64,000 nt of DNA from Hydrogenophilales bacterium (GTDB lineage Bacteria > Pseudomonadota > Gammaproteobacteria > Burkholderiales > Thiobacillaceae): assembly GCA_023258975.1 (NCBI GenBank), contig JAHFRD010000008.1, positions 62,001 through 126,000 of the forward strand, in the 5' to 3' direction. The position numbers were made by a program, and so were the translations under genes. Below the pieces are notes generated by a model. That model searched no databases and was not told the origin of the DNA. It was given only the letters and a program-made list of their open reading frames with translations. Position 1 is the stretch's first letter; the number at the start of each line of letters is the position of its first letter. Positions 32,641 to 57,948 of this stretch are shown one piece after another.

Positions 32641-32660
32641 GGTTTTGCGTCCGGCGGCTC

Positions 32661-39014: not shown

Positions 39015-39189
39015 TTGAACCTTCCCGTATTGGTTTTCCACCCGCGTCCCGCGAGCAAACGGGGCGAGTATATCGACATGCACATCGGCTTAGTGTGAGG
39101 CGGGTCATACGCCACCGCATCAGCCACCCCGGCCCATGCCCGCGCCGCGTTGACACTACAATCGCCGCCTCGTTTCGATGGAATTCGCC

Positions 39190-43545: not shown

Positions 43546-44766
43546 TCAGTCCTGTCGACGAAACGCGAGTACGGCGTTGCCGCCGCCGAAGGCGAAGGAG
43601 TTGCTGATGGCGGCGCGCAGATCCGGCGCTTCGCGGCCCGCGCCTCTCACCACGGGCACGGCGCAGGCCGGGTCGAGAGCGGAACAATGGGCGGTGGGCG
43701 GAATCCGCCGGTACCGCAACGCCAGCACCGTGATGGCGGCCTCCAGAGCGCCGGTCGCGCCGAGCAGATGGCCGTGCATGGATTTGCTCGAACTGACCGC
43801 CAGCCCGTCGAGGTGTTCACCCCAGACTTCGGCCAATGCCTGACACTCGACTTCGTCGCCCGCGCGGGTGGCGGTGGCGTGGGCGTTGCAATAACCGACC
43901 TCGGCCGGATGCAGACCGGCGGAGGCCAGCGCCGCCCGCATCGCGGCGGCCTGCCCGGACGCGGCCGGTTTGCTGAGATGGCTGGCGTCACTACTCATGC
44001 CGATGCCCGCGACCAGCGCATGGATGCGGGCGCCGCGCGCCAGGGCGCGCTCGACCCGTTCCAGGATCAGCACCGCCGCTCCCTCGGCCAGAACCAGGCC
44101 GGTGCGGTCGCTGGAGAATGGCCGGCAAGCTGAAGCCGGGTCAAGCGGATCGGGCGCGGCGAGTGTTCGCATGGCCTGCCAGGCCCGTACCACGCCCGTT
44201 GCCAGCGGCGCCTCGGCGCCGCCGGCATAAGCTACATCGACATCGCCACGTTGCACCGCGCGAAAAGCTTCGCCAATGGCGACGTTGGAAGAAGCGCAGG
44301 CAACGGAATAGGTCAGCGCCGGCCCGGTGATGCCCAGGCGCATGGCCAGATGCGCCGCCGGGGCGTTGGTCATGCCGGCGAGAACCGAAAGGGGGGGCAG
44401 GCGTTGCGAGCCGAAATGCGCCGCGTAAGCGGCCTCGACCGACAGCGCGCCGCCCATCGCACAGCCGAAGTAGATGCCGGTGCGTTCCGGCGCGGCATCC
44501 AAACCCTGCCCGGCATCGCGGCGCGCCAGTTCCGCCGCGACCACCGCGAACTGGCTGACGCGATCGACCCCGAGGAGTTGCAAGCGGTTGAACCAGGGTG
44601 CCGGGTCAAAATCCACCTGCCCAGCGACGGCCGGGGTATCGCCAAACGCTCCCTCCAGCGGGCCGATGCCGGAGCGCCCCGCCATCAGCGCCACGAAGAG
44701 ATCCTCCGGCGTGTTGCCCAGCGGCGAGATCAGGCCAAGGCCGGTAACGGCAACCACCCTGTTCAT
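43546..44766 (-). CDS. beta-ketoacyl-ACP synthase (KAS I/II type)
   Basis: 406 residues, full length. Condenses acyl-ACP with malonyl-ACP. The catalytic triad is complete: Cys157 in YSVACASSN, His296 in NAHATATRAGDE, and His333 in KSMHGHLLGATGA, with Lys328. N-terminal VVAVTGLGLISPLG and C-terminal NSFAFGGGNAVL are intact. It is the last gene of a six-gene minus-strand operon and starts 2 bases after the ACP stop. The preceding genes code an ACP and a Cys-nucleophile hydrolase, so it probably acts in a dedicated acyl pathway rather than general fatty-acid synthesis. No ketoreductase or dehydratase is adjacent. Confidence 0.9.
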   Translation of the reverse strand: MNRVVAVTGLGLISPLGNTPEDLFVALMAGRSGIGPLEGAFGDTPAVAGQVDFDPAPWFNRLQLLGVDRVSQFAVVAAELARRDAGQGLDAAPERTGIYFGCAMGGALSVEAAYAAHFGSQRLPPLSVLAGMTNAPAAHLAMRLGITGPALTYSVACASSNVAIGEAFRAVQRGDVDVAYAGGAEAPLATGVVRAWQAMRTLAAPDPLDPASACRPFSSDRTGLVLAEGAAVLILERVERALARGARIHALVAGIGMSSDASHLSKPAASGQAAAMRAALASAGLHPAEVGYCNAHATATRAGDEVECQALAEVWGEHLDGLAVSSSKSMHGHLLGATGALEAAITVLALRYRRIPPTAHCSALDPACAVPVVRGAGREAPDLRAAISNSFAFGGGNAVLAFRRQD

Positions 44767-44768
44767 AT

Positions 44769-45005
44769 TCAGATTGTCGCGGCCAGGGTTTCGTCGACCA
44801 AGGCAGCCAGTTCGGTCAGATTATTGATGGGCCGGTCTTCGGGGAGATCGACGTCGAAATATTCCCCGATGTCGAACAACAACTCGATCAGGCCGAGGGA
44901 ATCCAGGCCGAAATCGGAGAACGGCCGGTTCGGATCGAGATCCGCCGTGGCGATGCCGAATTTTTCGGCGATCCGTTGTTGGATCGTTTCCAGTGTGGTG
45001 GTCAT
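44769..45005 (-). CDS. acyl carrier protein
   Basis: 78 residues. The phosphopantetheine site is GLDSLGLIE (Ser36), with helices typical of ACP before and after. The acidic patch is weaker than in housekeeping AcpP and the DSL motif (instead of the DSLD/DSLE of AcpP) suggests a specialised carrier. Its start overlaps the hydrolase stop (ATGA at 45002-45005). It would carry the acyl chain for the adjacent ketoacyl synthase. Confidence 0.9.
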   Translation of the reverse strand: MTTTLETIQQRIAEKFGIATADLDPNRPFSDFGLDSLGLIELLFDIGEYFDVDLPEDRPINNLTELAALVDETLAATI

Positions 45006-45955
45006 GGCGCGGGCGGTCGGATAGCAAGGAGGGAATCGGAAGTTAACGACTCGTTAGCGGAAATTTGCCGCATGAAGCCGGCAATTTCACTGACGACCGT
45101 GTGGCGATCATTATCCAGGGTAATCATGTGGTAACTGTTTTCCAGCACCACCAGCCGTTTGTCCGCCGTGGCCAGTTGCCGCATGAGCAGTTCCGGGCCG
45201 CGCAGGCTGGTGACTTCATCCTCGCGGGCATGCAGGATCAGCGTGGGGGCATGGATGCGCGGCAGGGAAAGGCGCACGTGCCGGATCAGGCGTTCGGCTT
45301 CGTGGATGGCCCATAACGGCAGGTGCGATGCTCCCGCGCCGGACAAGTGGCGCTCGCGCATTTCGCGGGCAACCCATTTGCGTATTTGCGGGTTCTTGAC
45401 GCCATAGGGCTCCTGTTCGGCGAACTTGATCCAGCGCCGCAAGCCCGGCAGATAGCCGATGTGGCGCAGATGGCGCAAACGCGGCAGGCCCCAACCGTCG
45501 TAGTACAGCGTGGGCGAGAGCAGGATCAGGCCGGCGACCCGCTTCGGATTGGCCAGCGCCAACGCCAGCGCCAACGCCAGCGCCAAGACAGCGCCGATGC
45601 ACAGGCCGCCCAGCACCACCGGGCCATCGCCATCGCTCAGGCGATGCAGTTCCCGCTGTCCGGCGGCGAGCCAGTTGCGCCAGGAATGCGGCCGCATCGG
45701 CCCGGTGGCGGAATAATCGGGCAATTCCGGGGTGTGGATCGCGACGCCCTCGCGCAGCAAAGTGTTGCGGATGGTCGAGAACTCCCGGGGCGAACTGGCC
45801 AGGCCATGCAGCAACATGCAGGGCGCGCAGGCATCCGTTCGCGACGCGGCGAGCCCGCCCACCGATGGCGCCGATCCGGGCAGGGGCTGGCGCTCGGCGA
45901 GACCCCGGATTTCCCCGCCGGCCCGGAAGTGGGCGATCGCCGTGGCCGGGCTCAT
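45002..45955 (-). CDS. alpha/beta hydrolase with Cys nucleophile (carboxylesterase-like)
   Basis: 317 residues. The oxyanion region is LLHGLASSPREF. The nucleophile elbow reads GGLCIG, so Cys119 replaces the usual Ser (GxCxG as in dienelactone hydrolases and PHA synthases). The acid is probably in HAREDEVT and the His in NSYHMITLDND, the Est30-type end. Directly after the nucleophile is a hexanucleotide-repeat tract giving alternating Leu-Ala. With ACP and KAS next to it, a thioesterase or acyltransferase role is plausible. The start overlaps the RND pump stop as ATGA (45952-45955); a codon at 45973 is an alternative. Confidence 0.78.
   Translation of the reverse strand: MSPATAIAHFRAGGEIRGLAERQPLPGSAPSVGGLAASRTDACAPCMLLHGLASSPREFSTIRNTLLREGVAIHTPELPDYSATGPMRPHSWRNWLAAGQRELHRLSDGDGPVVLGGLCIGAVLALALALALALANPKRVAGLILLSPTLYYDGWGLPRLRHLRHIGYLPGLRRWIKFAEQEPYGVKNPQIRKWVAREMRERHLSGAGASHLPLWAIHEAERLIRHVRLSLPRIHAPTLILHAREDEVTSLRGPELLMRQLATADKRLVVLENSYHMITLDNDRHTVVSEIAGFMRQISANESLTSDSLLAIRPPAP
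45549..45588. repeat. hexanucleotide tandem repeat (GCCAGC/GCCAAC) inside hydrolase gene
   Basis: About six in-frame 6-base units encode alternating Leu-Ala after the catalytic elbow. Unit number can change by slippage without altering the frame. Confidence 0.7.
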
Positions 45956-48900
45956 CGTTTGTCTCCGCCCCATTGATGGGCCATGGCATAGAGGGTCGGC
46001 AACACCACCAGGGTGAGCAGGGTCGCGCTAATCAGGCCGCCGATCACCACCACCGCCAGGGGACGCTGGGTTTCCGCGCCGATGGCGTGCGACAGGGCCA
46101 TCGGCAGCAGCCCCAGCATGGCCAGCAGACCGGTCATGAGCACCGTGCGCATGCGCAGCATCGCGCCATTGGTCACGGCATCCACCCAGGACTGGCCTTC
46201 ACCACGCAACTGGTTGAAGGTGGTGATCATCACCACCCCGTTGAGAACCGCCTGGCCGAACAGGGCGATGAAGCCGATGGCCGCCGACACCGACAGGGGA
46301 ATCCCGGTGAGGAACAGGCCGAGGATGCCGCCGATCATGGCGAAGGGGATGTTGAGCAGGATCAGCGCGGCGTTCTTGAACGATTTGAAGGCGTCGAACA
46401 GCAGCACGAAGATGAGCAGCACACTGATCGGCACGATCACCGCCAGGCGCGCCATCGCGCGTTCCTGGTTTTCAAACTCGCCCGACCAGGTGATGCGGTA
46501 CTCGGGCGGCAACTTCACCCTGGCTTGCACGGCCTGCTGCATGTCGGCCACCACGCTGCCCATGTCGCGGTCGCGGATGAACACGCCGATGGCCATGACC
46601 CGGCCACCGTTCTCGCGGGCGATGTTCATGGCCCCCGAGGCGGCGGAAAAACGCGCCACCTCGTCGAGCGGAACGTGGGCGCCACTGGGTGTGCTAATCA
46701 GGATGTCATGCATCCGCGCCAGCACCCGATCCGGTTCCGCCAGCCGCACCATGACCACGAAGCGGCGCTCACCTTCCCATATCTGGGTGGCTTCCTTGCC
46801 GCCCAGCGCGGTCTCGATCATGTCCTGGATGTCGGCCACGCGCAGCCCGTAGCGCGCCGCCTTGTCGCGATCCACCTCGATGCGCCATTGCGGCAACGTG
46901 CCGGCGCGGTCGATGAAGGCGCGATTGACGCCGCGCACATGGGAAATGGCGCCCAGTATTTCCTGGGACGTCTGGCGCAGGGTTTCGCTATCCGCGCCGA
47001 AAACCTTGATCACGATCTGGCCGTCGATCTGGGAGATGTTCTCCAGGACGTTGTCGCGGATCGGCTGGGAAAAGCTGGCATCCACGCCGGGCAGTTTTTC
47101 CACCTCGGCTTCCATCTGCCGCAACAGATCTTCCTTCTTCATGCCGGAGCGCCAGGTATCGGCCTCTTTCAGGTCCACCAGCACCTCGGCCATGTTGATC
47201 GCCTTGGGATCGGTGCCGTCCTCCGGGCGGCCGGCCTTGGACACCACCGACGCCACCTCCGGCACGCGGCGCAGCGCCTCGCGGATCTGGCGGGTCAGAG
47301 ACTTGGCCTCCGGGATGGAAATACTGTTGGGCATGGTGACGTTGACCCAGATCGAGCCCTCGTCCAGCTCCGGCAGGAACTCGGTGCCCAGGCGCGGCAC
47401 CAGCGCCAGACTGGCCACCAGGGCGGCCAGGGCGACGCCCAGCACGGCGCGGCGATGGCCGAGCGCCCAGGCCAGGCTCGGCCGGTAGACGCGGGCAAAC
47501 GCCTCGACCAGGCGGTTGTGTTCGTGCGGCAGGTGCTTGGGCAGGAAATAGCGCGCGAGCAGCGGCACCAGGGTCAGCGACAGGATCAGCGCCACCACCA
47601 GGGCCGACACCACCGACCAGGCCATCGGCGAGAAGATGCGCCCCTCGTGGCGTTGCAGGGTGAAGATGGGCAGGTGCGCGGCGATGATGATAAGCATCGA
47701 GAAGAAGGTGGGCCGCCCCACTTCCGTGGCCGCCTCCTGGATGATCTTCAGGCGCGACTTGCCGGAGTGCTCGCTGGCTTCGGACAGGCGCCGGAAGATG
47801 TTCTCCATGACGATCACGGCGCCGTCGACGATGATGCCGAAGTCCATCGCTCCCAAAGACAGGAGGTTGGCCGGGATGCCCTTGAAGGTCAGCCCGAGGA
47901 AGGTGCCAAGCAGGGACAGCGGAATCACCAGGGCGACGATGAGGGCGGCGCGCAGGTTGCCGAGGAACAGGAACAGCACCAGCGACACCAGCAGCGCGCC
48001 TTCCACCAGGTTGCCGAACACGGTATGCAGGGTCTTGTCGATGAGCCAGGCGCGATCGTAGAACGGCTCGATGCTCACTCCCGGCGGCAGAATGCCGTGG
48101 TTGAGCTGGGCCACCTTGTCCTTGACCCCCTTGAGCACGTCGGAGGGGTTCTCGCCCTTGCGCATGACCACGATGCCGGTGACGGCGTCGTCGTCATCAT
48201 CGCGCCCGACGATGCCCTGGCGCGGGATGTTGCCCACCCCCACGGAAGCCACATCACGCACCAGCACCGGCACGCCGTCGCGCGCGAGCACCACCACGTT
48301 CTCGATGTCCCTGGCGCCGGTGAGCAGGCCGATGCCGCGAATCAGGTATTGCTGGCTGCCCTGGGCCACATAACCGCCGCCGGCGTTGGCGTTGCCGCGC
48401 TGCAAGGCGGTCACCAGATCCTGCAGGCCAATGCCACGGTCGCGCAATTTGGCCGGGTTGGGGCGCACCTCGTAGGTCTTGATGCTGCCGCCCATGGTGA
48501 CCAGGTCGGCGACGCCGGGCACCTGGCGCAGTTGCCGTTCCACCACCCAGTCCTGCAGTGTGCGCAGGTCCTGCGAGGACATGCCCTTGCCGCGCAACTG
48601 GAAGCGAAATATCTCGCCGATGGAGGTGGACAACGGCGCCAACTGCGGCTCGACCCCATCCGGCAGGGCCGCGCCACGCAGGCGCTCGTTGACCTGCTGG
48701 CGAGCGAAATAGGCATCCGCCTGATCGTCGAAGGTGATGGTCAGAAACGACAGGCCGAACTGGGTGTGGGAGAACACCCGCACCGAATGGGGCAGTCCGG
48801 ACAGAGCCACCTCCAGGGGAATGCTGACCTGCTTTTCCACTTCCTCGGCGGCGCGGCCGGGGTAGAGGGTGATGACCGTCACCTGAGTGTCGGAGACGTC

Positions 48901-49020
48901 CGGAAAAGCCTCGACCGGCAGCGCCTTGAACGCCGCGATGCCGGCGCCGATGAACAGCAGCAGCCCCAGCACGACGAACATCGGCTGGTTGAGCGCGAGA
49001 TTGACCAGGCGGCGGATCAT
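45952..49020 (-). CDS. RND efflux pump, heavy-metal (CzcA/CusA) type
   Basis: 1022 residues with 12 predicted membrane helices and two large periplasmic loops. The heavy-metal subfamily signature is present in the fourth helix: D393-FGIIV-D399-GAVIVM-E406, the Asp/Asp/Glu set of CzcA. The N-terminus MIRRLVNLALNQPMFVVLG and TQVTVITLYPGRAAEEVE are family marks. It should export divalent cations from periplasm or cytoplasm with proton influx. The start overlaps the adaptor stop (ATGA at 49017-49020), and the end overlaps the hydrolase start. Coupling of a metal-type pump to acyl-chain genes is unusual, and the substrate may differ from that of CzcA. Confidence 0.9.
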   Translation of the reverse strand: MIRRLVNLALNQPMFVVLGLLLFIGAGIAAFKALPVEAFPDVSDTQVTVITLYPGRAAEEVEKQVSIPLEVALSGLPHSVRVFSHTQFGLSFLTITFDDQADAYFARQQVNERLRGAALPDGVEPQLAPLSTSIGEIFRFQLRGKGMSSQDLRTLQDWVVERQLRQVPGVADLVTMGGSIKTYEVRPNPAKLRDRGIGLQDLVTALQRGNANAGGGYVAQGSQQYLIRGIGLLTGARDIENVVVLARDGVPVLVRDVASVGVGNIPRQGIVGRDDDDDAVTGIVVMRKGENPSDVLKGVKDKVAQLNHGILPPGVSIEPFYDRAWLIDKTLHTVFGNLVEGALLVSLVLFLFLGNLRAALIVALVIPLSLLGTFLGLTFKGIPANLLSLGAMDFGIIVDGAVIVMENIFRRLSEASEHSGKSRLKIIQEAATEVGRPTFFSMLIIIAAHLPIFTLQRHEGRIFSPMAWSVVSALVVALILSLTLVPLLARYFLPKHLPHEHNRLVEAFARVYRPSLAWALGHRRAVLGVALAALVASLALVPRLGTEFLPELDEGSIWVNVTMPNSISIPEAKSLTRQIREALRRVPEVASVVSKAGRPEDGTDPKAINMAEVLVDLKEADTWRSGMKKEDLLRQMEAEVEKLPGVDASFSQPIRDNVLENISQIDGQIVIKVFGADSETLRQTSQEILGAISHVRGVNRAFIDRAGTLPQWRIEVDRDKAARYGLRVADIQDMIETALGGKEATQIWEGERRFVVMVRLAEPDRVLARMHDILISTPSGAHVPLDEVARFSAASGAMNIARENGGRVMAIGVFIRDRDMGSVVADMQQAVQARVKLPPEYRITWSGEFENQERAMARLAVIVPISVLLIFVLLFDAFKSFKNAALILLNIPFAMIGGILGLFLTGIPLSVSAAIGFIALFGQAVLNGVVMITTFNQLRGEGQSWVDAVTNGAMLRMRTVLMTGLLAMLGLLPMALSHAIGAETQRPLAVVVIGGLISATLLTLVVLPTLYAMAHQWGGDKR

Positions 49021-50121
49021 TTGGACTCCAGCATCTGCTGGAGCAGGAGCGCGCCTTCGGTCACCACCTTCTCACCGGCTTGCAGGCCGTCCCGGATCAG
49101 TGTGCGCCTGTCGTTGCGGACCTCGCCGCTGACCAGGCGGCGCTGGAAGCGGCCACGACCCGCCTCGACGAACACATACTGTTTCTGGCCGATGAGAATC
49201 ACCGCCGCGTCGGGCACCTCGACACCACCCGCAGCCGGCTTGCCGACCAGGCCGGAGGCGAACATCTCGCCTTTCAGCTTGCGCTCGCGGTTATCCACCC
49301 GCGCCCGCACCGTGAGCGTGCGTTTGTCCGCATCGACGAAATCGGCTACCTGGATGACGCGCGCCTGGAAGCGCTGGCCGGGCCAGGCGCTCACCGTGAA
49401 CTCGACTTTCTGGCCGGTCTGGAAATAGCCGATGTCGCCCTCGGGTACGTCGAGCTGCAACCACAGCGTGGTCGGATCGGTCACCACGAACAACGGCTTG
49501 TCCATGTCCGGGCGGATTTCCTGGCCGGGGTTGATGCGTCGCTCCACCACGGTGCCGGCGATGGATGCGCGCAACGGCAGCCCCTCATCCACCTCGTGGA
49601 TACCCGCGCCCAGGGCGCCCAGGCGGCTGGCGGCGCGGGCGTAATCGGCATCGGCCTGGGCCAGATCGGCCTGCGCGGATTCCAGATCCTTGCGCGGAGC
49701 GACGCCATGCTCGACCAGTTCCCCGGCGCGCGACGCCTGCTTGCGCGCCCGCTCGCGCCCGGCCTGGGCGCGTTGCAGGTCGGCCTGCAGGCCGCCCACC
49801 TCGCCCGCGCGCCAGGGGCGCGCCCGCGTGAACCCGCTCGCCGACCCGGGCCAGGATCGTGGTAACCCGCCCGGCCAGCGGCGAAAAAACGCGAACGGTG
49901 TGCTCCTCGTCCCAGACCAGGCGACCGGCCACGCTGGCTTCGCTCGGCCCGGCCGCAGTAGCGGACTCCACCTTCAAACCGGGCAGCCGGCTTGCGCCGG
50001 CCGCGAAGGTGATGCTGTCGCCGCCGATCGTGGCCTTGGGCGCCTCGACTGGCGGAGCCTCCTTGCCGCAGCCCAGGAGCAAGGCCGGCAACAGCAGCAG
50101 GGGGAGATAGGTTTTTTTCAT
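49017..50121 (-). pseudogene. RND periplasmic adaptor (CusB/CzcB type), frameshifted
   Basis: The N-terminal part starts at 50121 with a lipoprotein signal (MKKTYLPLLLLPALLLGCGK, lipobox LLGC) and continues to RVHAGAPLA. The rest (GGLQADLQRAQAGRERARKQ to the C-terminus at 49017) is in another frame. An extra G/C in the run at 49804-49806 (TCGCCCGCGC) breaks the frame; removing one base restores a continuous protein of about 367 residues with lipoyl, coiled-coil and beta-barrel parts. It may be a real mutation, a programmed shift or an assembly error. If real, the pump lacks a full adaptor. The start overlaps the TolC gene stop (ATGA). Confidence 0.8.
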
Positions 50122-51410
50122 CGTGATTCCTCCAGCGCAAGGCTGGCCTGGTAAGCCGCGAGGGATTTGGCGTGGCCGGCCCGTGCCTCGACCGCCTCGA
50201 CCTGGACGGCGCGCAGGGTGCGGCGCGCATCGAGCAGATCCACCAGGCCGATGGCGCCACGCCGGTAGGCGAACTCGGCGGCCTGGGCGCCGCTCTCCGC
50301 CTCGCCCAGCAGCCCAGCCTCGAAACGGCGCCCCTGCTCCAGCGCGGCGCGCAGGTCGCTGGCCGCTCTGAGCCGCTCGGCGCGAGCCTGGCCCCGGACT
50401 TGTTGCAGCGCCTCGCGGGCGGCGTCGAGATCGGCCTCGGCGCGACGCACTTCGCCCTCGTATTCGTGATGGATGAACAGCGGAATGCTCACGCCGAAGC
50501 CCAGCGTGTCGGTCGGTGGGCTGCAACTGGGCGCGCGGCAATGTTCGTATTGCACGCCCACGCTCACGTCCCGTTTGCGCAACGCCAGGGCCAGGGCGCG
50601 CGCCTGCTCGGCGGCCTGGACGCGCGCCAGGGCGGCTTGCACGTCGGCGCGTTGTTCGATCCCGGTTTCCTGGTCGGAGGGATCGGCCAGGCTTGGCCAG
50701 GGATCCGCCGCGCGCAGCCGCGCTGCTTCGTTTTCCACGCCGATCAGGTAGGCCAGCGCGGTCTGCGCTTTTTCCAGATCGGCCCGCGTCTGGCGGGCAT
50801 CGTTCTCGGCGCGCAAGGCTTCCACCTTGAGACGGGCCAGGTCGGACGTTGACAGATCGCCGGCCTTCACCCGCAACGCCGCCGCCTCGACGCTTTTCCG
50901 GTACAGGGCGGCGCTTTCCAGCAGGATGCGGGACCGCTCCTGCGTTCTCAGCAGATCGTAGTAGGCCTGGCGCATCGCCAGACGCTGCTGCCGCCCGACC
51001 TCGTCCTGGTCGCCGCGCGCTGCGGCCAGGCGCGCGTCCGCCGCCTTCGCGCGCAGGGCGCGCTTGTCACCGCGCTCGAACAATTGCTCCACGCGGTAGG
51101 TGTAATCCGCCGTCCGCTCCCAAGGCGCGCCGGCGCCCGGTTTGCCGGGCTGGAACGCGGCCAGATTCAGCGACAACTGAGGATTGGGGCGTGCTCCCGC
51201 GCTGGCGATGTCGGCCTGGGCGCCCTGTGTCACCGCCTGGGCAACACGAAGTTCCCGATTGTTGGCACGCAAGAGCGCTTCGGCGTCGTTCAGCGCCAGG
51301 TGGCCGAGGTCGGCAGGCGCCGCCATGAGCAGGCCCGGCCAGAGCAGACCGGTGTAGAGCAGCAGACGGGGGAGAGAAGAGGGCTTGGAGCGTGTGTTCG
51401 AGTACAGCAT
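50118..51410 (-). CDS. TolC/CzcC-type outer-membrane channel
   Basis: 430 residues. Signal peptide in residues 1-32 (SLPRLLLYTGLLWPGLLMAA), then the duplicated outer-membrane efflux domain with long Ala/Arg-rich helical hairpins (ADARLAAARGDQDEVGRQQR, LAMRQAYYDLL) and a short strand set. The second repeat has GFGVSIPLFIHHEYEGEV. It forms the exit duct of the RND pump. It is the first gene of the six-gene operon. Start chosen at 51410 for the signal peptide; longer starts at 51443 and 51491 exist. Its promoter region is shared with the divergent response regulator. Confidence 0.85.
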   Translation of the reverse strand: MLYSNTRSKPSSLPRLLLYTGLLWPGLLMAAPADLGHLALNDAEALLRANNRELRVAQAVTQGAQADIASAGARPNPQLSLNLAAFQPGKPGAGAPWERTADYTYRVEQLFERGDKRALRAKAADARLAAARGDQDEVGRQQRLAMRQAYYDLLRTQERSRILLESAALYRKSVEAAALRVKAGDLSTSDLARLKVEALRAENDARQTRADLEKAQTALAYLIGVENEAARLRAADPWPSLADPSDQETGIEQRADVQAALARVQAAEQARALALALRKRDVSVGVQYEHCRAPSCSPPTDTLGFGVSIPLFIHHEYEGEVRRAEADLDAAREALQQVRGQARAERLRAASDLRAALEQGRRFEAGLLGEAESGAQAAEFAYRRGAIGLVDLLDARRTLRAVQVEAVEARAGHAKSLAAYQASLALEESR

Positions 51411-51519
51411 GTTGCGAGCTACGGATGGTTTCAGAACGGCCATCCAGGCATCGGCCCGGATAGAGAGGAGGAGGGATTGTCTCTGGCGCAAGCCTACGGA
51501 TCGCGCCGCGCGTCGTCCT

Positions 51520-51533
51520 TTACCATTTGGTAA
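51520..51533. promoter_or_regulatory. TTAC-N6-GTAA site in the RND/regulator divergent promoter
   Basis: TTACCATTTGGTAA, a perfect inverted repeat, midway between the TolC gene start (51410) and the response-regulator start (51631). The same pattern occurs twice upstream of the cytochrome-porin gene (53715, 53804). A response-regulator operator is inferred. Confidence 0.6.
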
Positions 51534-51630
51534 GAATCGAAACGTTGCCCGAACGCCTGCCGGAAAATGCCCGGATAGTCAGCACACCCGAAATCGCCGG
51601 ACAACCCGCCCCGCCCCTATGGAAACTCAC

Positions 51631-52296
51631 ATGCGCATTCTGGTCATTGAGGACGACGAGAAGATCGCCTCGTTCGTGGTGAAAGGTCTGAAGCAGGCGG
51701 GCCACCAGACGGATCTGGCCATTGACGGCGAGCTTGGCCTGGCGCGCCTGAGAACCGCGAACCACGATGCCGCCGTGGTCGACATCATGCTGCCCCATCT
51801 CGACGGCCTCACTCTGGTGCAGCGCGCCCGCCAGGCGGGGGTGACGACCCCGATCATCTTTTTATCCGCGCGCCGCGAACTGGACGACCGCATCCGCGGC
51901 CTGGGCGCCGGGGGCGACGACTATCTGGTCAAGCCGTTCGCCTTTTCCGAGTTGCTGGCCCGCCTGCAAGCGCTGGTGCGGCGCGCCACCGGCGCCCTGG
52001 AACCGGTGCGGCTGGGCGTCGGCGAGCTGGAGATGGATCTGATGAAGCGCCGCGTGCTCTGGCGCGGCCAGGAAATCACCCTGCAACCCAGGGAATTCGC
52101 CTTGCTGGAGTACCTGCTGCGCAACAAGGGCCGCGTCGTCTCCAAGGTCATGATCATGGAGCACGTCTGGGATTACGGTTTCGATCCGGAAACCAGCCTG
52201 GTGGAAACCACGGTCAGCCGCCTGCGCGGCAAACTCCTGGAGGGCGCCGAGTTGATCGAGACGGTGCGCGGAGTGGGCTATGTTCTTGGGCGCTAA
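51631..52296 (+). CDS. OmpR-family response regulator
   Basis: 221 residues. Receiver domain with acidic pair IEDDEK (residues 5-10), phospho-acceptor Asp in VVDIMLPHLDGL (near 51), Thr/Ser in IFLSAR and Lys in YLVKPF. The C-terminal winged helix ends with VETTVSRLRGKL and GVGYVLG. Adjacent to a metal-type RND operon, it resembles CusR/CzcR. Start at 51631 (MRILVIEDD), although an ATG at 51619 is also in frame. It overlaps the histidine kinase gene by 17 bases. It probably binds the TTAC-N6-GTAA motif nearby. Confidence 0.93.
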   Translation: MRILVIEDDEKIASFVVKGLKQAGHQTDLAIDGELGLARLRTANHDAAVVDIMLPHLDGLTLVQRARQAGVTTPIIFLSARRELDDRIRGLGAGGDDYLVKPFAFSELLARLQALVRRATGALEPVRLGVGELEMDLMKRRVLWRGQEITLQPREFALLEYLLRNKGRVVSKVMIMEHVWDYGFDPETSLVETTVSRLRGKLLEGAELIETVRGVGYVLGR

Positions 52297-53686
52297 GAGT
52301 TCCGTCGCCCTGCGGCTGACCCTGTTCTACGCGCTGTTCTTCGGCCTCGTCACCGCCGGTGGCGGCATCCTGCTCTACCATCTGGTGCGGATTCATCTTT
52401 TGGAAGAAATCGACCAGGATCTCCTGCGGCAACAGCAAGGTTTCGCCAGCATCCTCGCCGCCCACGACGGCCGCGCGCTGCGTACCGAACTGGCTTCGAG
52501 CACCGCCGACGGCGGCCGCGAGGATTACTTTGTCCGCATCCTCGACGCCACCGGCCATGTGGAACTGTCTTCCGACCTGCGCTCCTGGAAAGCCCCTCTT
52601 CCCGGCATCCCCGCTGGCGGATTGAGAATCGGACAACACGCCTATCTCACCGTGGACATTCCGGATGCGCGGCGGCAGGCTCGCGTATTGACCAGCGCGG
52701 TAGCGCCCGGACGTTATCTGCAAATCGGCCTTTCCCTGGCCGACAGCATGGCCTTCCTGCGCCATTTCCAGCACTACGGCCTGATTATCCTGGGCACCAT
52801 GCTCAGTCTCGGCACTCTGGCCGGCTGGGCGCTGGCGCGCAAGGCCATGGCCGGGGTCGAGGCGGTGGCGCGCGCCGCCGACCGCATCGCCGACGGCCAC
52901 TTCTCCGACCGCGTGAGGGTAGGCGACCAGGGCAGCGAGATCGACCACCTGGTCAATACCTTCAACCGCATGGCGGAACACGTGCAGACCGTGATGGCGG
53001 AGATGCGCCAGGTCAACGACCACATCGCGCATGACTTGCGCAGCCCCCTGACGCGCATGCGCGGCCTCGCGGAAAACGCCGCCATCCAGGCCACGCAGGG
53101 TAGCGAACGCGCGGAACTGGCCGGCAGCATCGTCGAGGAATGTGATCGGCTCGGGATGTTGATCGACACCATGCTGGAAATCGCCGAGGCCGAGGCGGGC
53201 GTACAGCGCCTGGCGCTGGCGCGGCTGGAGCCGACGGTGCTGGTGGCGCAGGCGCTGGAACTCTATGAAGGCGTGGCCGAGGAACGCCATGTCGCCCTGA
53301 GCGGCGACCTGCCCCCAACCCCCGCCCTGGAAGGCGACCGTCGCCGCCTGCTGCGCGCGCTGGCCAACCTGATCGATAACGCCATCAAATACACCCCGGC
53401 CGGCGGCCGGGTGGAAGTGCTTCTGCGACAGCGCACGGGCCGTGTGGAAATCATCGTGCGCGACAACGGCCCCGGCATCCCCGCCGCCGAAGTACCACAT
53501 CTGTTTGAACGTTTCTACCGTGGCGACCGCAGCCGCCATCTGCCCGGCAACGGCCTCGGCCTCAGCCTGGCGCGCGCGGTGGCGCATGCCCACGGCGGCG
53601 AGATTCGCATGGAATCCAGTCACGGCGTCGGCAGCACCTTCATTCTGAGCCTCCCCCTCCTGGCGCGCGCTTCGCCACCGGCCTGA
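52280..53686 (+). CDS. sensor histidine kinase
   Basis: 468 residues. Membrane helices near 10-34 and 160-185 flank a periplasmic sensor of about 125 residues, then a HAMP-like region. H-box HDLRSPLTR (near 253), N-box NLIDNAIKY, G1 DNGPGI and G2 GNGLGLSLA are intact. The sensor domain has no obvious metal-binding His cluster or CxxC, so its signal is unclear. It overlaps the response regulator gene, with which it forms a two-component system. Downstream, after 202 bases, is the cytochrome-porin operon. Confidence 0.93.
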   Translation: MFLGAKSSVALRLTLFYALFFGLVTAGGGILLYHLVRIHLLEEIDQDLLRQQQGFASILAAHDGRALRTELASSTADGGREDYFVRILDATGHVELSSDLRSWKAPLPGIPAGGLRIGQHAYLTVDIPDARRQARVLTSAVAPGRYLQIGLSLADSMAFLRHFQHYGLIILGTMLSLGTLAGWALARKAMAGVEAVARAADRIADGHFSDRVRVGDQGSEIDHLVNTFNRMAEHVQTVMAEMRQVNDHIAHDLRSPLTRMRGLAENAAIQATQGSERAELAGSIVEECDRLGMLIDTMLEIAEAEAGVQRLALARLEPTVLVAQALELYEGVAEERHVALSGDLPPTPALEGDRRRLLRALANLIDNAIKYTPAGGRVEVLLRQRTGRVEIIVRDNGPGIPAAEVPHLFERFYRGDRSRHLPGNGLGLSLARAVAHAHGGEIRMESSHGVGSTFILSLPLLARASPPA

Positions 53687-53714
53687 TCGGGCGCGGCATG
53701 CGCCGCGCCCAAGC

Positions 53715-53728
53715 TTACCGATCCGTAA
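53715..53728. promoter_or_regulatory. TTAC-N6-GTAA site upstream of cytochrome-porin operon (distal)
   Basis: TTACCGATCCGTAA. Second of three copies of this inverted pattern in the window; 160 bases before the 53889 start. Confidence 0.55.
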
Positions 53729-53803
53729 CCTGATTGCCCGCCCGATTACCCATCGGAGCCACGGCGGCCGTGTGGCACGGCCATCCAACCGCGATAACGC
53801 GGC

Positions 53804-53817
53804 TTACGAAACGGTAA
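53804..53817. promoter_or_regulatory. TTAC-N6-GTAA site upstream of cytochrome-porin operon (proximal)
   Basis: TTACGAAACGGTAA, about 25 bases upstream of a possible -10 (TATCCT at 53842), the right place for a class II activator. Third copy of the motif. Confidence 0.55.
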
Positions 53818-53888
53818 AAGTCGCCGCATGCCCGTCGCACCTATCCTCTCGCCATCCCCGATTTCCCTGATGACGAAAGGTTCACCCC

Positions 53889-55256
53889 ATGCGCACGATC
53901 CCGAATTGCATCTCCAGCCGGCGCTCACACGCCGCCTGGCCCCTTGCCGCCCTGCTCGCGGCCGCCAGTGTTCCGGCCCACGCGCTACCCAGTTTCGCCC
54001 GCCAGACCGGCGAGGAATGCGCCGCCTGCCACATCGGCGCGTTCGGCCCGCAACTCACGCCTCATGGCATGAAGTTCAAGCTGGGCGGTTACACCGACAG
54101 CAACGGCAAGAACGACAGCCTGCCGGTCTCCGCCATGCTGGTGGAATCCTGGTTTCATACCAGGAAGGATCAGCCGCCCGCCGATGGCCCCAACAACAAG
54201 GCGCTGATCCAGGAAGCCTCCCTGTTTCTGGCCGGGCGCCTGAGCGATCACGTGGGCAGCTTCGCGCAGGCCACCTGGGCGGATACCGGCAGGCGCAAGC
54301 TCACTCTGGACAACGTCGACGCGCGCTACGCCAACACCCTGCAACTGGCCGGCAAGAACACGGTTCTCGGTGTCAGCTTCAACAACAACCCGACGGTGAG
54401 CGACCCGTTCAACACGGTGCCGGCCTGGCGCTTTCCTTACATGGCGACGGAAATGGCCCCCGGCCCCGCCGCCTCACCCATCATCGACGGCGTTCTCGCC
54501 GGGCAGGTCGGCGGCCTGGCCGCATACGGCCTCTGGAACGACTCGATCTACGCCGAACTCGGCGGTTATCGCACCCTGGGCCGCAGCTTCCTGGAAAACG
54601 TCAACGTGCTCGCCAGCACGGACAACCTCGACAAGATTAGTGGCGTCGCCCCCTACTGGCGCGTGGGTTACTTTCAGGACAACCACAAGAGTGCCTGGCA
54701 TGTCGGCATGTTCGGCTTCGACCCGAACATGAAGCCTGGCGGCGCGGCCGGCCCGAGCGACAAATACCGCGACCTTGGCGTCGATGCGTCGTTCCAGTAT
54801 CTCGGCACGCGCAGACACGTATTCGCGCTGAATACCGCTTACATCCATGAAAAACGCAAATTCGACGCCTCCTTCGATTCGACCTGCGCAACCCCGGACG
54901 CGCCCTGCAACCTGAGCGGCAGCGTCAACCGCTTCGATGTCTCCGGCTCCTATCACTACGACCAGACCTGGGGCGTGAGCGCCGGGCTGTTCGGCGTCAA
55001 GGGCAGCGAAGACAGCGGCTTGTACAGCGGTGTGAGCACACTGAACAAGCCCAACTCCGATGGCTACATCCTGCAGGCCGACTGGACCCCGTGGGGCAAG
55101 GAAAGCTCCTGGGGCGCGCCTTGGGCCAACCTGCGCCTGGGCCTGCAATACACCGGCTACACCAGGTTCAACGGCCTGAAGAACAACTATGACGGCACGG
55201 GCCGCAACGCCAGCGACAACAACACCCTTTATGCCTTCGCCTGGGCCACATTTTGA
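53889..55256 (+). CDS. outer-membrane monoheme cytochrome-porin fusion (Cyc2-like architecture)
   Basis: 455 residues. Signal peptide (about 1-32), then LPSFARQTGEECAACHIGAF: one heme c site (CAACH) about 15 residues into the mature protein. The rest is beta-strand-rich with many Tyr/Trp/Gly and ends in Phe (LYAFAWATF), the mark of an outer-membrane barrel. A cytochrome plugged into a porin is the design of Cyc2, which oxidises iron outside the cell; other members of this wider family are unstudied. Homology to Cyc2 itself is not shown. It is the first of four genes encoding c-type cytochromes, so it probably starts an electron path across the outer membrane. Confidence 0.75.
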   Translation: MRTIPNCISSRRSHAAWPLAALLAAASVPAHALPSFARQTGEECAACHIGAFGPQLTPHGMKFKLGGYTDSNGKNDSLPVSAMLVESWFHTRKDQPPADGPNNKALIQEASLFLAGRLSDHVGSFAQATWADTGRRKLTLDNVDARYANTLQLAGKNTVLGVSFNNNPTVSDPFNTVPAWRFPYMATEMAPGPAASPIIDGVLAGQVGGLAAYGLWNDSIYAELGGYRTLGRSFLENVNVLASTDNLDKISGVAPYWRVGYFQDNHKSAWHVGMFGFDPNMKPGGAAGPSDKYRDLGVDASFQYLGTRRHVFALNTAYIHEKRKFDASFDSTCATPDAPCNLSGSVNRFDVSGSYHYDQTWGVSAGLFGVKGSEDSGLYSGVSTLNKPNSDGYILQADWTPWGKESSWGAPWANLRLGLQYTGYTRFNGLKNNYDGTGRNASDNNTLYAFAWATF

Positions 55257-55267
55257 GGAACCACGCC

Positions 55268-55651
55268 ATGCCACGCCGCAAACTCCAAATTTTCCCGCGA
55301 CTCCTCACTCTGATCCCGTTGCTCGGCGCTCCACTCGCCCACTCGGCCGATGCCGACCACGGCGCCAAGGTGTTCGCGGAGGAATGCGCCGAATGCCATA
55401 GTGCCAAGCCCGGCAAGAACAAGAAGGGGCCGACCCTGTTCGGCGTCTCCGGGCGCGGCGCCGCCGGCGTGCCGGACTACGTCTACTCCGACGCCATGAA
55501 GGGCAGTGGCGTGATCTGGACGGCCGACAAGCTGGACGCCTACATCGCCGCCCCGCGCAAGCTGGTGCCGGGCTGCAAGATGAAGTACGACGGCCTGGGC
55601 GATGCCGCCGCGCGCGCCGACCTCATCGAATTCCTGAACGCCACTCGCTGA
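55268..55651 (+). CDS. periplasmic class I cytochrome c
   Basis: 127 residues. Signal peptide (1-27), heme site CAECHSAKPG near residue 41, and the sixth ligand Met in KLVPGCKMKYDGL, the pattern of small soluble c2/c550-type cytochromes. Start at 55268 has GAGGAA 8 bases before; a TTG at 55253 would overlap the previous gene and is not preferred. It likely accepts or donates electrons between the outer-membrane cytochrome-porin and inner-membrane or periplasmic partners. It lies 11 bases after the previous stop. Confidence 0.9.
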   Translation: MPRRKLQIFPRLLTLIPLLGAPLAHSADADHGAKVFAEECAECHSAKPGKNKKGPTLFGVSGRGAAGVPDYVYSDAMKGSGVIWTADKLDAYIAAPRKLVPGCKMKYDGLGDAAARADLIEFLNATR

Positions 55652-56113
55652 ATGATCGACATGACACGCAAACCTCTGCTGTTTCCCCTCCTGGGCCTGG
55701 TCGCCTTGATTGCCCACACCGCCCACGCGGCCGACCCGGACGACATGGTCAAGTACCGCAGGAACGTGATGAGCGCCAATGGCGGCCTGATGGGCGCATG
55801 CAATGCCCTGATCCAGAACAAGGTCGAGTTCAAGGGTGCGGTTGGCAACACCGTGGCCGGTTATGCCAGGGCGCTGGAGACGCTCAACAAGGATTTGCCG
55901 GCGCTGTTTCCGAAAGGCGGCAACGGCGCCGACAGCGACGCCCAGCCCGATGTGTGGAGCAAGCGCGCGGAATTCGAGCACCGCGCCCGCGATACCCAGG
56001 CCAAAGCCGCAGCCTTCGCCAGGGCCGCCAGCGGCGGCGACCCGAGGCTGGCGGAGAAATTCAAGGAGCTGTCGGATTCCTGCAAGAGCTGCCACAAGGA
56101 CTTCCGCAAGTGA
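55652..56113 (+). CDS. cytochrome c' (class II)
   Basis: 153 residues. Signal peptide to about residue 26, a four-helix bundle pattern, and the heme site CKSCHKDFRK at the very C-terminus, the class II arrangement. Cytochromes c' are five-coordinate, bind NO and CO and may protect against NO. It begins directly after the previous stop, and its stop overlaps the next start (GTGA). A second start (MTRK at 55661) is possible. It may act as a sensor or scavenger beside the electron path. Confidence 0.9.
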   Translation: MIDMTRKPLLFPLLGLVALIAHTAHAADPDDMVKYRRNVMSANGGLMGACNALIQNKVEFKGAVGNTVAGYARALETLNKDLPALFPKGGNGADSDAQPDVWSKRAEFEHRARDTQAKAAAFARAASGGDPRLAEKFKELSDSCKSCHKDFRK

Positions 56114-57015
56114 AGGCGGCCTTGTTGGTGGCCGGCCTGGCCGCCACCTTCGCCGGCGGCGCCTGGGCGACCGCGCCGATGAGCCGGGGCGAGTACCTCT
56201 ACAAGCTGTCCGGCTGCGAGAACTGCCATAGCGACCGCGAACACGACGGCGCCCGTCTGGCCGGCGGGCGCCGGCTGGTCACCCCGCTGGGCACCTTTTT
56301 CACACCCAACATCACGCCGGACGCAGATACCGGCATCGGCCGCTGGAGCGAGGCGGACTTCATCCGCGCCCTGCGCGAAGGAAAAAGCCCGAGCGGTTCC
56401 AACTACTATCCCAGCTTCCCCTATACCTCCTATACGCGCCTGTCCGACTCCGACATGAAAGCGCTGTGGGCCTATCTGCGCACGGTTCCGGCCGCGCGCC
56501 AGGCCAACGAAGCGCACGAACTGCCGTGGTATCTGCGCTTCCGGCCCCTGCTGGCGATCTGGAAATGGCTGTATTTCGATGCCGGTGCCTATCAACCGGT
56601 GGCGGCGAAATCCGCCGAGTGGAATCGCGGCGCCTATCTGGTTCAGGGCGCCGCCCACTGCGGCGAATGCCATACCCCGCGCAACACGCTGGGCGGCTAC
56701 CGCAAGGGCGCCCTGCTGGCGGGAACCATGACCGGCCCGGAAGGCAACGTGGTTCCCAATATCACCCCGGACAAACCATTCGGCATCGGCAAGTGGAAAC
56801 GTTCGGAACTGGTTCAATACCTGGGCTCCGGCATCCGCTCCGACGGCGATTGCGCCGGCGGTCTGATGGCCGAGATCATCGACAACGGCCTGAAATACCT
56901 GCCGGCCGGCGACCTGGAAGCCATCACCACCTACGTCGCCGAGGTGCCCGCCGTGGCCAACCCGGTGCACAAGGCCAGAAAAGCCAGGAAAGCGAAGGAC
57001 GACTCGGGGTATTGA
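56110..57015 (+). CDS. periplasmic diheme cytochrome c
   Basis: 301 residues from a GTG at 56110 overlapping the preceding stop. Signal peptide 1-20. Two cytochrome c domains with CENCHSDREH (near 36) and CGECHTPRN (near 193), each followed by NITPD-type motifs (FFTPNITPDADTGIGRW; VVPNITPDKPFGIGKW). This is the layout of cytochrome subunits that serve membrane-bound alcohol or gluconate dehydrogenases, with two of the usual three hemes. The C-terminus is Lys-rich. Last gene of the operon, probably handing electrons onward. Confidence 0.88.
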   Translation: MKAALLVAGLAATFAGGAWATAPMSRGEYLYKLSGCENCHSDREHDGARLAGGRRLVTPLGTFFTPNITPDADTGIGRWSEADFIRALREGKSPSGSNYYPSFPYTSYTRLSDSDMKALWAYLRTVPAARQANEAHELPWYLRFRPLLAIWKWLYFDAGAYQPVAAKSAEWNRGAYLVQGAAHCGECHTPRNTLGGYRKGALLAGTMTGPEGNVVPNITPDKPFGIGKWKRSELVQYLGSGIRSDGDCAGGLMAEIIDNGLKYLPAGDLEAITTYVAEVPAVANPVHKARKARKAKDDSGY

Positions 57016-57037
57016 GCGTGGGAAATCCGCTTGCGAA

Positions 57038-57075
57038 GCGATGGTTGAGTTATTTACTCAACAATTAGCCATCGC
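57038..57075. promoter_or_regulatory. nested palindrome upstream of folE2
   Basis: Inner arms GTTGAGT (57044-57050) and ACTCAAC (57056-57062) around TATTT; outer arms GCGATGG and CCATCGC (57038-57044, 57069-57075). A possible -10 TATACT follows at 57077. It may be an operator for folE2 (in other bacteria often Zur-controlled) or a terminator of the cytochrome operon. Confidence 0.45.
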
Positions 57076-57111
57076 TTATACTCCGCGCATCCCGCATACA
57101 GGAACCCCGCC

Positions 57112-57948
57112 ATGAGCACCTGCGAATCGGTCTGTGAGACCGCCGCCCCCTGCCCCACCACACAGCCCATCGCCGATGTCCAAAGCTATCCGGACTCGCG
57201 CAAGATCGCCATCGACAAGGTCGGCATCAAGGCCATCCGCCATCCGGTGCGGGTGCTCGACAAGACCGGCGGCGCCCAGCACACCATCGCCACCTTCGGC
57301 ATGTATGTCTATCTGCCGCACCACTTCAAGGGGACGCACATGTCCCGCTTCATCGAGATTCTCAACGGCAACGAGCGGGAATTTTCGGTGGAATCGTTCG
57401 AGCAGACGTTGCGCCAGATGGTGGTGAAGCTGGAAGCCGAGTCCGGCCACGTCGAGATGAACTTCCCCTACTTCGTCAACAAGAAGGCGCCGGTGTCCGG
57501 GGTGGAAAGCCTGATGGACTACGACGTGACCTTCATCGGCGAGGTCAAGGACGGCGAATATCTGCAAACCATGAAGGTGCTGGTGCCCTGCACCAGCCTG
57601 TGCCCGTGTTCCAAGAAAATTTCCCAGTACGGCGCCCACAACCAGCGTTCCCACGTCACCATCACGGTACGCACCAATACCTTCGTGTGGATCGAGGACG
57701 TCATCAATATCGCCGAGGAGAACGCCTCCAGCCAGCTCTACGGCCTGTTGAAGCGCCCGGATGAGAAGTACGTCACGGAAAAGGCCTACGAGAATCCGAA
57801 ATTCGTGGAAGACCTGGTGCGCGACGTCGCCGCCGCGCTGAACCAGGACCAACGCATCGACGCCTACGTGGTGGAAGCGGAGAACTTCGAGTCCATCCAC
57901 AACCACAGCGCGTATGCCTTGATCGAGCGCGACAAGACCGCGAAGTAG
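57112..57948 (+). CDS. folE2: GTP cyclohydrolase FolE2
   Basis: 278 residues. Type IB GTP cyclohydrolase, first step of folate (and queuosine-type) pterin synthesis; it works with metals other than zinc. Marks: [19 protein letters not shown], the [21 protein letters not shown] catalytic Cys-containing segment (shown in part: [11 protein letters not shown]), and [13 protein letters not shown] at the C-terminus. The N-terminus has four Cys residues in [14 protein letters not shown], a variable tail. No folE1 is present in the window. The upstream palindrome may control it. Confidence 0.93.

Follow-up and report, generated by a model that had tools for sequence, protein, structure and literature searches.

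How might a bacterium carry electrons across its outer membrane with a single heme? The question is raised by four consecutive genes in a 64,000-nucleotide stretch from a Hydrogenophilales bacterium (assembly GCA_023258975.1, contig JAHFRD010000008.1, positions 62,001 to 126,000 of the forward strand), which we call the window. The genes encode a 455-amino-acid (aa) protein that combines one heme motif with a predicted barrel (here, the porin-cytochrome), a class I cytochrome c, a class II cytochrome, and a diheme cytochrome c. Based on its sequence and a structural model, the porin-cytochrome appears to be a divergent Cyc2-family cytochrome-porin, and in its relatives the constant companion is the class I cytochrome, with a quinol dehydrogenase adjoining most of the loci. 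What would such a set of genes do, and in which direction would its electrons run?

A divergent Cyc2-family cytochrome-porin

The porin-cytochrome matches none of the families in Pfam or NCBIfam. What places it with Cyc2 is a motif: there is a strict match to AXPXFAR[QK][TY], reading ALPSFARQT-GEE-CAACH, upstream of its single CXXCH. This pattern has been published as Cyc2 specific (PMC8406198), and its presence is the ground for the family assignment. The three-residue spacing between motif and CXXCH equals that of all seven canonical-looking Cyc2 rows in our trees, and the strict motif occurs in all four members of the window type (i.e., the four-gene form). A PXL motif follows as PQL, five residues past the CXXCH, and the length of 455 aa lies above the Cyc2 criterion of at least 365 aa. 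By sequence and model, the N terminus has a basic start, a hydrophobic helix at residues 8-26, and AHA preceding the motif.

The AlphaFold model, built on a 47-row alignment (pLDDT 87.9, pTM 0.86), has a helical N-terminal heme segment followed by 16 barrel-length strands. The original prediction, made from the sequence alone, had described one CAACH heme near the N terminus and a C-terminal barrel, and both are borne out; it had also named a heme segment with no barrel behind it as the outcome that would speak against it, and the barrel does follow. The matches listed by Foldseek are outer-membrane barrels, nearly all of them porins, with moderate query-normalized TM-scores of 0.38-0.51, including OprP (0.51) and OprO (0.49); most of these porins are 16-strand barrels. 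Cyc2 itself has been published as a 16-strand protein modeled on OprO and OprP folds (PMC8406198). Motif, barrel, and single heme agree with the proposed Cyc2-type fusion lying beside periplasmic cytochromes.

Neighbors of the porin-cytochrome in relatives

Is the four-gene arrangement typical? When one genome of each species was scanned, 69 stretches matched a pattern and 67 loci resulted, 50 of these loci being labeled Betaproteobacteria; neighboring open reading frames (ORFs) were clustered and labeled with profiles built from the clusters, and chosen members were checked in Pfam. The heme motif is present in 71 of 76 clustered relatives; the remaining 5 are broken or truncated where their contig stops. 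A class I cytochrome c is the next gene in 62 of the 64 loci with at least 600 bases downstream; the two counted as lacking it are L062, which has none, and L045, where the ORF seems broken, though tblastn finds the gene. Homologs always found among unrelated neighbors would have told against the original prediction; this did not occur, and the class I cytochrome recurs. The claim of a fixed linkage to a cytochrome c' and a diheme cytochrome did not survive the comparison: the constant partner is the class I cytochrome, and the other two accompany it in 2 of the 67 scanned loci (L014 and L036; downstream sequence reaches 2 kb or more in 60 of the 67) and in 4 of 10 clade members from the source organism's family.

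A quinol dehydrogenase adjoins 51 of the 55 loci with enough flank. In 39 it is a cytochrome b561 (PF01292) and in 12 a tetraheme NapC/NirT protein (PF03264); the four loci with neither are L014 and L036, of the window type, and L015 and L071. Of the 52 loci with 3.5 kb or more of upstream sequence, 41 have a response regulator and a kinase inside that distance. The b561 form, carried by several named isolates, is mostly on one strand (response regulator, histidine kinase, b561, porin-cytochrome, cytochrome c), and the NapC form is mostly divergent (histidine kinase, response regulator, and NapC facing porin-cytochrome and cytochrome c). The complete path to the inner membrane that had been originally envisaged is not encoded in the window's operon; most relatives do encode a candidate, either b561 or NapC.

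In a tree of 110 rows, a single group of 71 (SH-aLRT 99) takes in every b561-linked, NapC-linked, and window-type row, together with seven rows with the class I cytochrome only and five with no partner seen, some of them cut; the porin-cytochrome stands far from the canonical-looking rows, themselves labeled by motif. A 77-row tree that drops 33 of these rows (the 12 labeled canonical or canonical-like, near duplicates, and a number of long branches) has a corresponding group of 62 (support 100/97) and a main NapC group at 100/100. Since the NapC label needs at least three gains or losses on the tree, b561 and NapC would most simply have replaced each other more than once. A modestly supported branch (75/87) has the four window-type rows on one side, and a sister branch carries a c4-like diheme cytochrome instead, an arrangement that recalls cyc2-cyc1. 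Is the class I pairing exclusive to this clade? That idea was not upheld in full: 6 of the 13 class-I-only rows lie outside the group (L149, L150, L151, L165, L173, and L176), five with weak matches to the class I model (36-58 bits) and L165 with 123 bits.

The Cyc2 motif runs through all of these classes. Over the 110 rows, a relaxed form that allows F or Y and A or S is present in 13/13 NapC-linked, 42/42 b561-linked, 4/4 window-type, 12/13 c4-linked, 11/13 class-I-only, 10/13 no-partner-seen, 7/7 canonical-looking, and 3/5 canonical-like rows; in the same order, the strict form is present in 3/13, 30/42, 4/4, 11/13, 8/13, 3/13, 7/7, and 3/5. The spacing from CXXCH to PXL is five residues in 58 of 59 b561, NapC, and window-type rows and in 11 of 13 c4-linked rows, and four in all 7 canonical-looking rows. 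The canonical-looking set consists of seven loci of family code f60, a label that rests on the motif. The family-profile search matched 81 genomes, 57 of them with code f60, and the clade profile aligns this canonical-looking Cyc2 via its N-terminal part, mostly the first 145 positions (best E value per genome, 6.5e-23 to 9.7e-10). Alignment through the N-terminal part has also been reported between Cyc2 proteins of different clusters (PMC5566968).

Some individual loci show further arrangements. Uliginosibacterium gangwonense (L044:5385-11348) has both branches side by side in one genome, with a b561-linked porin-cytochrome and its class I cytochrome followed, 1.4 kb on, by a second porin-cytochrome with a c4-like diheme cytochrome. 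At L144:1868-4518 (family member G514), a single class I gene lies between two porin-cytochrome genes, one of them truncated where the contig stops, in what looks like a tandem duplication. The L059 contig, named Chitinophaga pinensis, holds a b561-type module resembling those of Burkholderiales and is probably a mis-binned or misnamed metagenome-assembled genome.

Three small cytochromes

The class I cytochrome matches Pfam Cytochrom_C (4.4e-7), and its PDB matches are class I cytochromes. Its Met is invariant across 22 aligned sequences, which ruled out a Sphaeroides heme protein (SHP). A class I partner that retains this Met suggests that electrons cross between the carrier and the porin heme.

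The class II cytochrome matches PF01322 (Cytochrom_C_2; 8.4e-25, 88.5 bits against a cut-off of 26.5), has a C-terminal CXXCH, and finds its best PDB matches in Alcaligenes cytochrome c'. Would it then bind nitric oxide (NO)? Its Met40, invariant in all four aligned sequences, lines up with the distal Leu16 of Alcaligenes cytochrome c', and by match coordinates it meets residue 12 of R. palustris c-556, the Met ligand of that protein; a fragment search aimed at the c-556 ligand itself gave no match. In low-spin c-556, a Met placed distally is the ligand, yet one also occurs there in the five-coordinate c' of R. molischianum. Given the conserved distal Met, we consider the predicted role of an electron carrier at least as likely as that of an NO binder.

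The diheme cytochrome (Pfam Cytochrom_C, 1.8e-8; two CXXCH) aligns over its residues 6-289 with residues 9-299 of the 482 in PDB chain 8hdd_B (E value, 2.3e-65). By this alignment it appears to be a shortened dehydrogenase cytochrome subunit that ends after heme domain 2. Full-length subunits of this kind pass electrons to quinone; the soluble short form could be a carrier.

The source organism and its family

The profile matches 29 of 101 genomes of the source organism's family, and 10 of these fall in the window's clade, all 10 of which were retrieved. The class I cytochrome adjoins the gene in 7 of the 10, several contigs being short and the gene of G482 running off its contig. The cytochrome c' and diheme cytochrome adjoin it in four (our own, G020, G454, and G483), and b561 or NapC in none, several of the 10 again being on short contigs. 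We read the c'/diheme version as a local variant on this sequence evidence. L014, one of the two scanned loci that carry it, comes from a genus mate and is labeled Gallionellaceae in its record.

The source genome encodes an aa3-type oxidase, two cbb3 oxidases, three Cytochrom_D1 matches (cd1-family genes), and SoxB, and the organism looks like a sulfur-oxidizing denitrifier. On contig 32, a fourth heme-copper subunit beside Cytochrom_D1 genes has no NCBIfam match at 1e-30 and is probably an NO reductase. Searches of this genome returned no match to NapC/NirT, to an MtrB/PioB-type porin (PF11854, which also does not match the 455-aa protein), or to a second Cyc2-like protein.

Operon layout and neighboring genes

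The proposed four-gene operon with tight junctions holds when read from the sequence and its ORFs (Table 1). The same four genes stand in the same order in three other species, two of which are only 45-67% identical in the three small cytochromes, and this recurrence indicates that the operon is not a chance arrangement. A named isolate, Parasulfuritortus cantonensis LSR1 (L036), carries the four-gene form.

Table 1. Positions of the operon, its motifs, and the adjacent genes in the window
Feature	Position	Strand	Basis
Porin-cytochrome, Cyc2-like fused cytochrome-porin, 455 aa	53889-55256	+	Motif, heme, AlphaFold model, porin folds, relatives, trees
Cyc2 consensus ALPSFARQT, then CAACH	53982..54032	+	Sequence against the consensus in PMC8406198
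Heme site CAACH of the porin-cytochrome	54018-54032	+	
Predicted 16-strand barrel segment	54126..55250	+	DSSP on AlphaFold model
Class I cytochrome c (c550/c2 type)	55268-55651	+	ATG start 11 bases past porin-cytochrome stop; Pfam and PDB class I matches
Class I heme site CAECH	55385-55399	+	
Class I conserved Met (presumed ligand)	55580-55582	+	
Class II cytochrome (cytochrome c'/c-556 family)	55652-56113	+	0-base junction; PF01322, PDB c' and c-556 matches
Class II heme site CKSCH	56081-56095	+	Alignment of four
Class II conserved Met40	55769-55771	+	Alignment of four
Diheme cytochrome c, 301 aa	56110-57015	+	GTG start, 4-base overlap; resembles first two heme domains of membrane dehydrogenase cytochrome subunits
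OmpR-type response regulator, nearest heavy-metal CopR/CzcR/SilR type	51631..52296	+	Response_reg and Trans_reg_C; TIGR01387 204.7 bits, below cut-off of 279.2
Sensor histidine kinase, nearest CopS/CzcS/SilS type	52280..53686	+	Pfam HAMP, HisKA, HATPase_c; TIGR01386 225.5 bits, below cut-off of 292.55
Divergent heavy-metal RND efflux genes (CusA/CzcA family, adaptor, OEP)	45952..51491	-	TIGR00914 1044.4 bits, cut-off 701; OEP

Upstream of the operon and in the same orientation is a two-component system (51631-53686), which falls outside the span of the original prediction; the start of its response regulator was picked by eye, and the domain searches used 51643. Do such systems share one ancestry across the relatives? 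A common origin was rejected: the kinases of the one b561 locus and the one NapC locus tested are of the 2CSK_N type, those of the window, L036, and L143 are HAMP kinases, and with kinase types that differ in this way the two-component neighbors recur but do not form a single orthologous set. The sensor kinases were also examined for Fe-binding RExxE/ExxE motifs that might point to iron sensing; RExxE is in none of the 52 segments and ExxE in 20, and the lead was discarded. The divergent RND efflux genes are possible regulatory neighbors and are not counted as part of the conduit. Their adaptor seems to be split over two frames at 49017-50541 on the minus strand (an open stretch at 49017-49799, the other frame further up), a frameshift or sequencing error.

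A scan of 51300-57200 found one sigma-70 promoter match against 0.9 expected and six terminators against 4.1 (standard deviation, 1.9), within about 1 standard deviation of shuffled sequences. The sole promoter-like match lies between the operon and folE2, and in the same gap (57041-57112) an imperfect inverted repeat can be seen by eye, GCGATGGTTGAGT ... ACTCAA ... CCATCGC; this region is possibly a control region of folE2. Elsewhere in the window are two very large neighboring ORFs of 1483 and 2140 aa (28213-39083, minus strand) and an ORF pair (43546-45005) that resembles, by its first residues, a ketosynthase and an acyl carrier protein.

Which way would the electrons flow?

With about even confidence, we favor the view that the operon is a Cyc2-family electron conduit with its own periplasmic carriers. 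The gene order, protein families, predicted barrel, Cyc2 motif, and conserved class I pairing are computed; we infer localization, substrate, inward direction, carrier order, and regulation. In this model, the porin-cytochrome would be an outer-membrane protein whose one heme lies where the 16-strand barrel opens to the periplasm. The reductant would be small and soluble, with Fe(II) or a similar metal ion the likeliest candidate, and would reach the heme inside the pore. The co-encoded class I cytochrome c would take up the electron and hand it on to the class II cytochrome and the soluble diheme cytochrome. The final sinks would be cytochrome c dependent (i.e., the aa3-type oxidase, the two cbb3 oxidases, the cd1-family genes, and the probable NO reductase), and the adjacent two-component system would activate the operon in response to a metal-type signal. 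For the source organism we favor an inward path that starts from a dissolved electron donor, for instance Fe(II); for the b561 and NapC forms, outward flow is at least as good.

Several observations weigh against this conduit model. The barrel half has nearly no sequence match to canonical-looking Cyc2 in the clade profile search, and of 23 genomes searched within the genus, our own among them, only 3 have the gene. The quinol dehydrogenase in the relatives' module fits outward flow at least as well, and the named host genera (29 of the 67 relatives have no genus) are mostly heterotrophs. The source genome has b561-family proteins elsewhere (five matches, four over the cut-off), so a quinone link in trans is possible. 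We know of no functional test of any clade member. For Cluster 2 Cyc2, function is said to depend on context (PMC10734462).

Could the path run outward instead? We think this rather unlikely. In the clade at large, b561 or NapC/NirT would oxidize quinol, and electrons would leave by way of the class I cytochrome c and then the porin-cytochrome for an acceptor outside the cell with a high potential, such as Fe(III) chelates, Mn(IV), or oxidants; the window's operon would then be a lineage variant in which other periplasmic cytochromes occupy the place of the quinol dehydrogenase. Two unrelated quinol dehydrogenase families in one module, the repeated gains or losses of the NapC label, and the heterotrophy of most named host genera all argue for export. 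However, PV-1 Cyc2 has a potential of 208 mV, which is too high for most Fe(III) minerals, and within the family no clade member has an adjacent quinol dehydrogenase (the short contigs noted above apply here); the source genome has no NapC/NirT match, although it does have b561-family proteins elsewhere. Moreover, CymA-type proteins can run either way, CymA having been proposed as the quinone reductase of an inward Mto path (PMC6295460), so a gene list cannot settle direction.

Might the system serve against metal stress instead? That it oxidizes, at the outer membrane, a metal whose reduced form is toxic, for instance Cu(I), and is co-regulated with the divergent RND pump seems unlikely to us. 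The idea draws on the CopRS/CzcRS-like two-component system that stands between a CusA/CzcA-family efflux operon and the cytochrome operon, on an efflux outer-membrane gene that keeps its place in L014, on an RND piece about 3.5 kb away in L147, and on Dechloromonas sp. CZR5 (L077:7870-13347), where a NapC-type module is followed directly by a heavy-metal RND efflux set that shares 40-44% identity with that of the window. Yet among 192 loci (many overlapping, many with short flanks), RND permease homologs are found only in the window copy, L077, and L147, with two weak adaptor matches in L064 and L155, and the kinases of the two b561 and NapC loci tested differ in type. That the protein is a porin with a structural heme and no transmembrane electron transfer is quite improbable: it has only one heme and the porin fold dominates, but the near-universal heme motif and the class I pairing speak against this reading. 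Most improbable of all is the originally suggested NO protection or sensing, in which cytochrome c' would bind NO and the operon would defend a denitrifier. The PF01322 match, the Alcaligenes cytochrome c' structures (NO binders), and the Cytochrom_D1 matches in the genome are consistent with it; against it stand the invariant Met40 at the distal position, as in low-spin c-556, and the rarity of the class II gene among the genome-wide loci, and we find no positive support for it beyond the family name.

Cyc2-like genes outside iron oxidizers

Cyc2-like genes outside iron oxidizers are already in print, and earlier counts of such genes have included relatives of this clade or of its sister branch: PMC5566968 lists Dechloromonas aromatica, Uliginosibacterium gangwonense, and an Aquabacterium strain among the holders. 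Among the best-ranked matches in the open-licence literature, we found no description of the linkage of the porin-cytochrome to b561 or NapC, or of the c'/diheme variant; Cyc2, b561, and porin came together in one paper, where the b561 domain lies in an operon beside mto.

We tentatively propose, as a possibility that falls well short of even, that the clade is a separate outer-membrane electron path, often under a sensor kinase, in which quinone-pool electrons move outward through a quinol dehydrogenase of either type, the two being interchangeable, a class I cytochrome c dedicated to the path, and a porin with one heme. If this is true, then heterotrophic Betaproteobacteria (Zoogloea, Thauera, Accumulibacter, Ideonella, and others) would reach outside acceptors without a multiheme outer-membrane cytochrome, and the window would hold the version of a sulfur oxidizer, with two other periplasmic cytochromes replacing the quinol dehydrogenase. 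The quinol-linked family is, to us, a more interesting find than the c'/diheme variant. Cyc2 serves as a marker of microbial iron oxidation, and a large quinol-dehydrogenase-linked clade with the Cyc2 motif, in hosts mostly not known to oxidize iron, would caution against that use. The clade would also offer a small, testable system for the role and electron direction of Cyc2 homologs outside iron oxidizers.

Comparison with known systems

Among the systems that invite comparison, the SHP/DHC/cytochrome b operon (PMC2909971) likewise clusters a cytochrome b, c-type cytochromes, and a QseC-like or other sensor kinase; it has no porin-cytochrome and its SHP binds oxygen, whereas the window's class I cytochrome keeps its Met. 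The cytochrome subunits of FAD-glucose, fructose, aldehyde, and alcohol dehydrogenases align through their first two heme domains with nearly the whole length of the diheme cytochrome. At 301 aa, however, the latter has two hemes only and neither the third heme nor the C-terminal extension, five of its six PDB matches being chains of 444-486 residues, and no dehydrogenase gene was found among the flanking genes scanned with Pfam. The mtoABD-cymA system of Sideroxydans resembles the NapC form in combining an outer-membrane conduit, a monoheme carrier, and a NapC/NirT-type inner-membrane protein; it differs in that MtoAB is a decaheme cytochrome in a separate 26-strand barrel, and the source genome here has no MtrB/PioB match.

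Similar in gene order is the cyc2-cyc1 pair of the Acidithiobacillus rus operon (PMC10654088), in which a cytochrome-porin gene is followed by a periplasmic cytochrome gene, so that the class I cytochrome holds the position of Cyc1. The neighbors seen here include no rusticyanin or oxidase genes, and it is in the sister branch that a c4-like diheme partner is found. With Cyc2 itself (Acidithiobacillus Cyc2, Mariprofundus PV-1 Cyc2, and Leptospirillum Cyt572) the window protein shares one N-terminal CXXCH, AXPXFAR[QK][TY], PXL, and a predicted 16-strand barrel, and some of these proteins also have a co-encoded periplasmic cytochrome. In contrast, the window protein has five rather than four residues between CXXCH and PXL, a divergent barrel, and a monoheme class I partner in place of a diheme Cyc1/c4, and most of its relatives add a quinol dehydrogenase and a two-component system.

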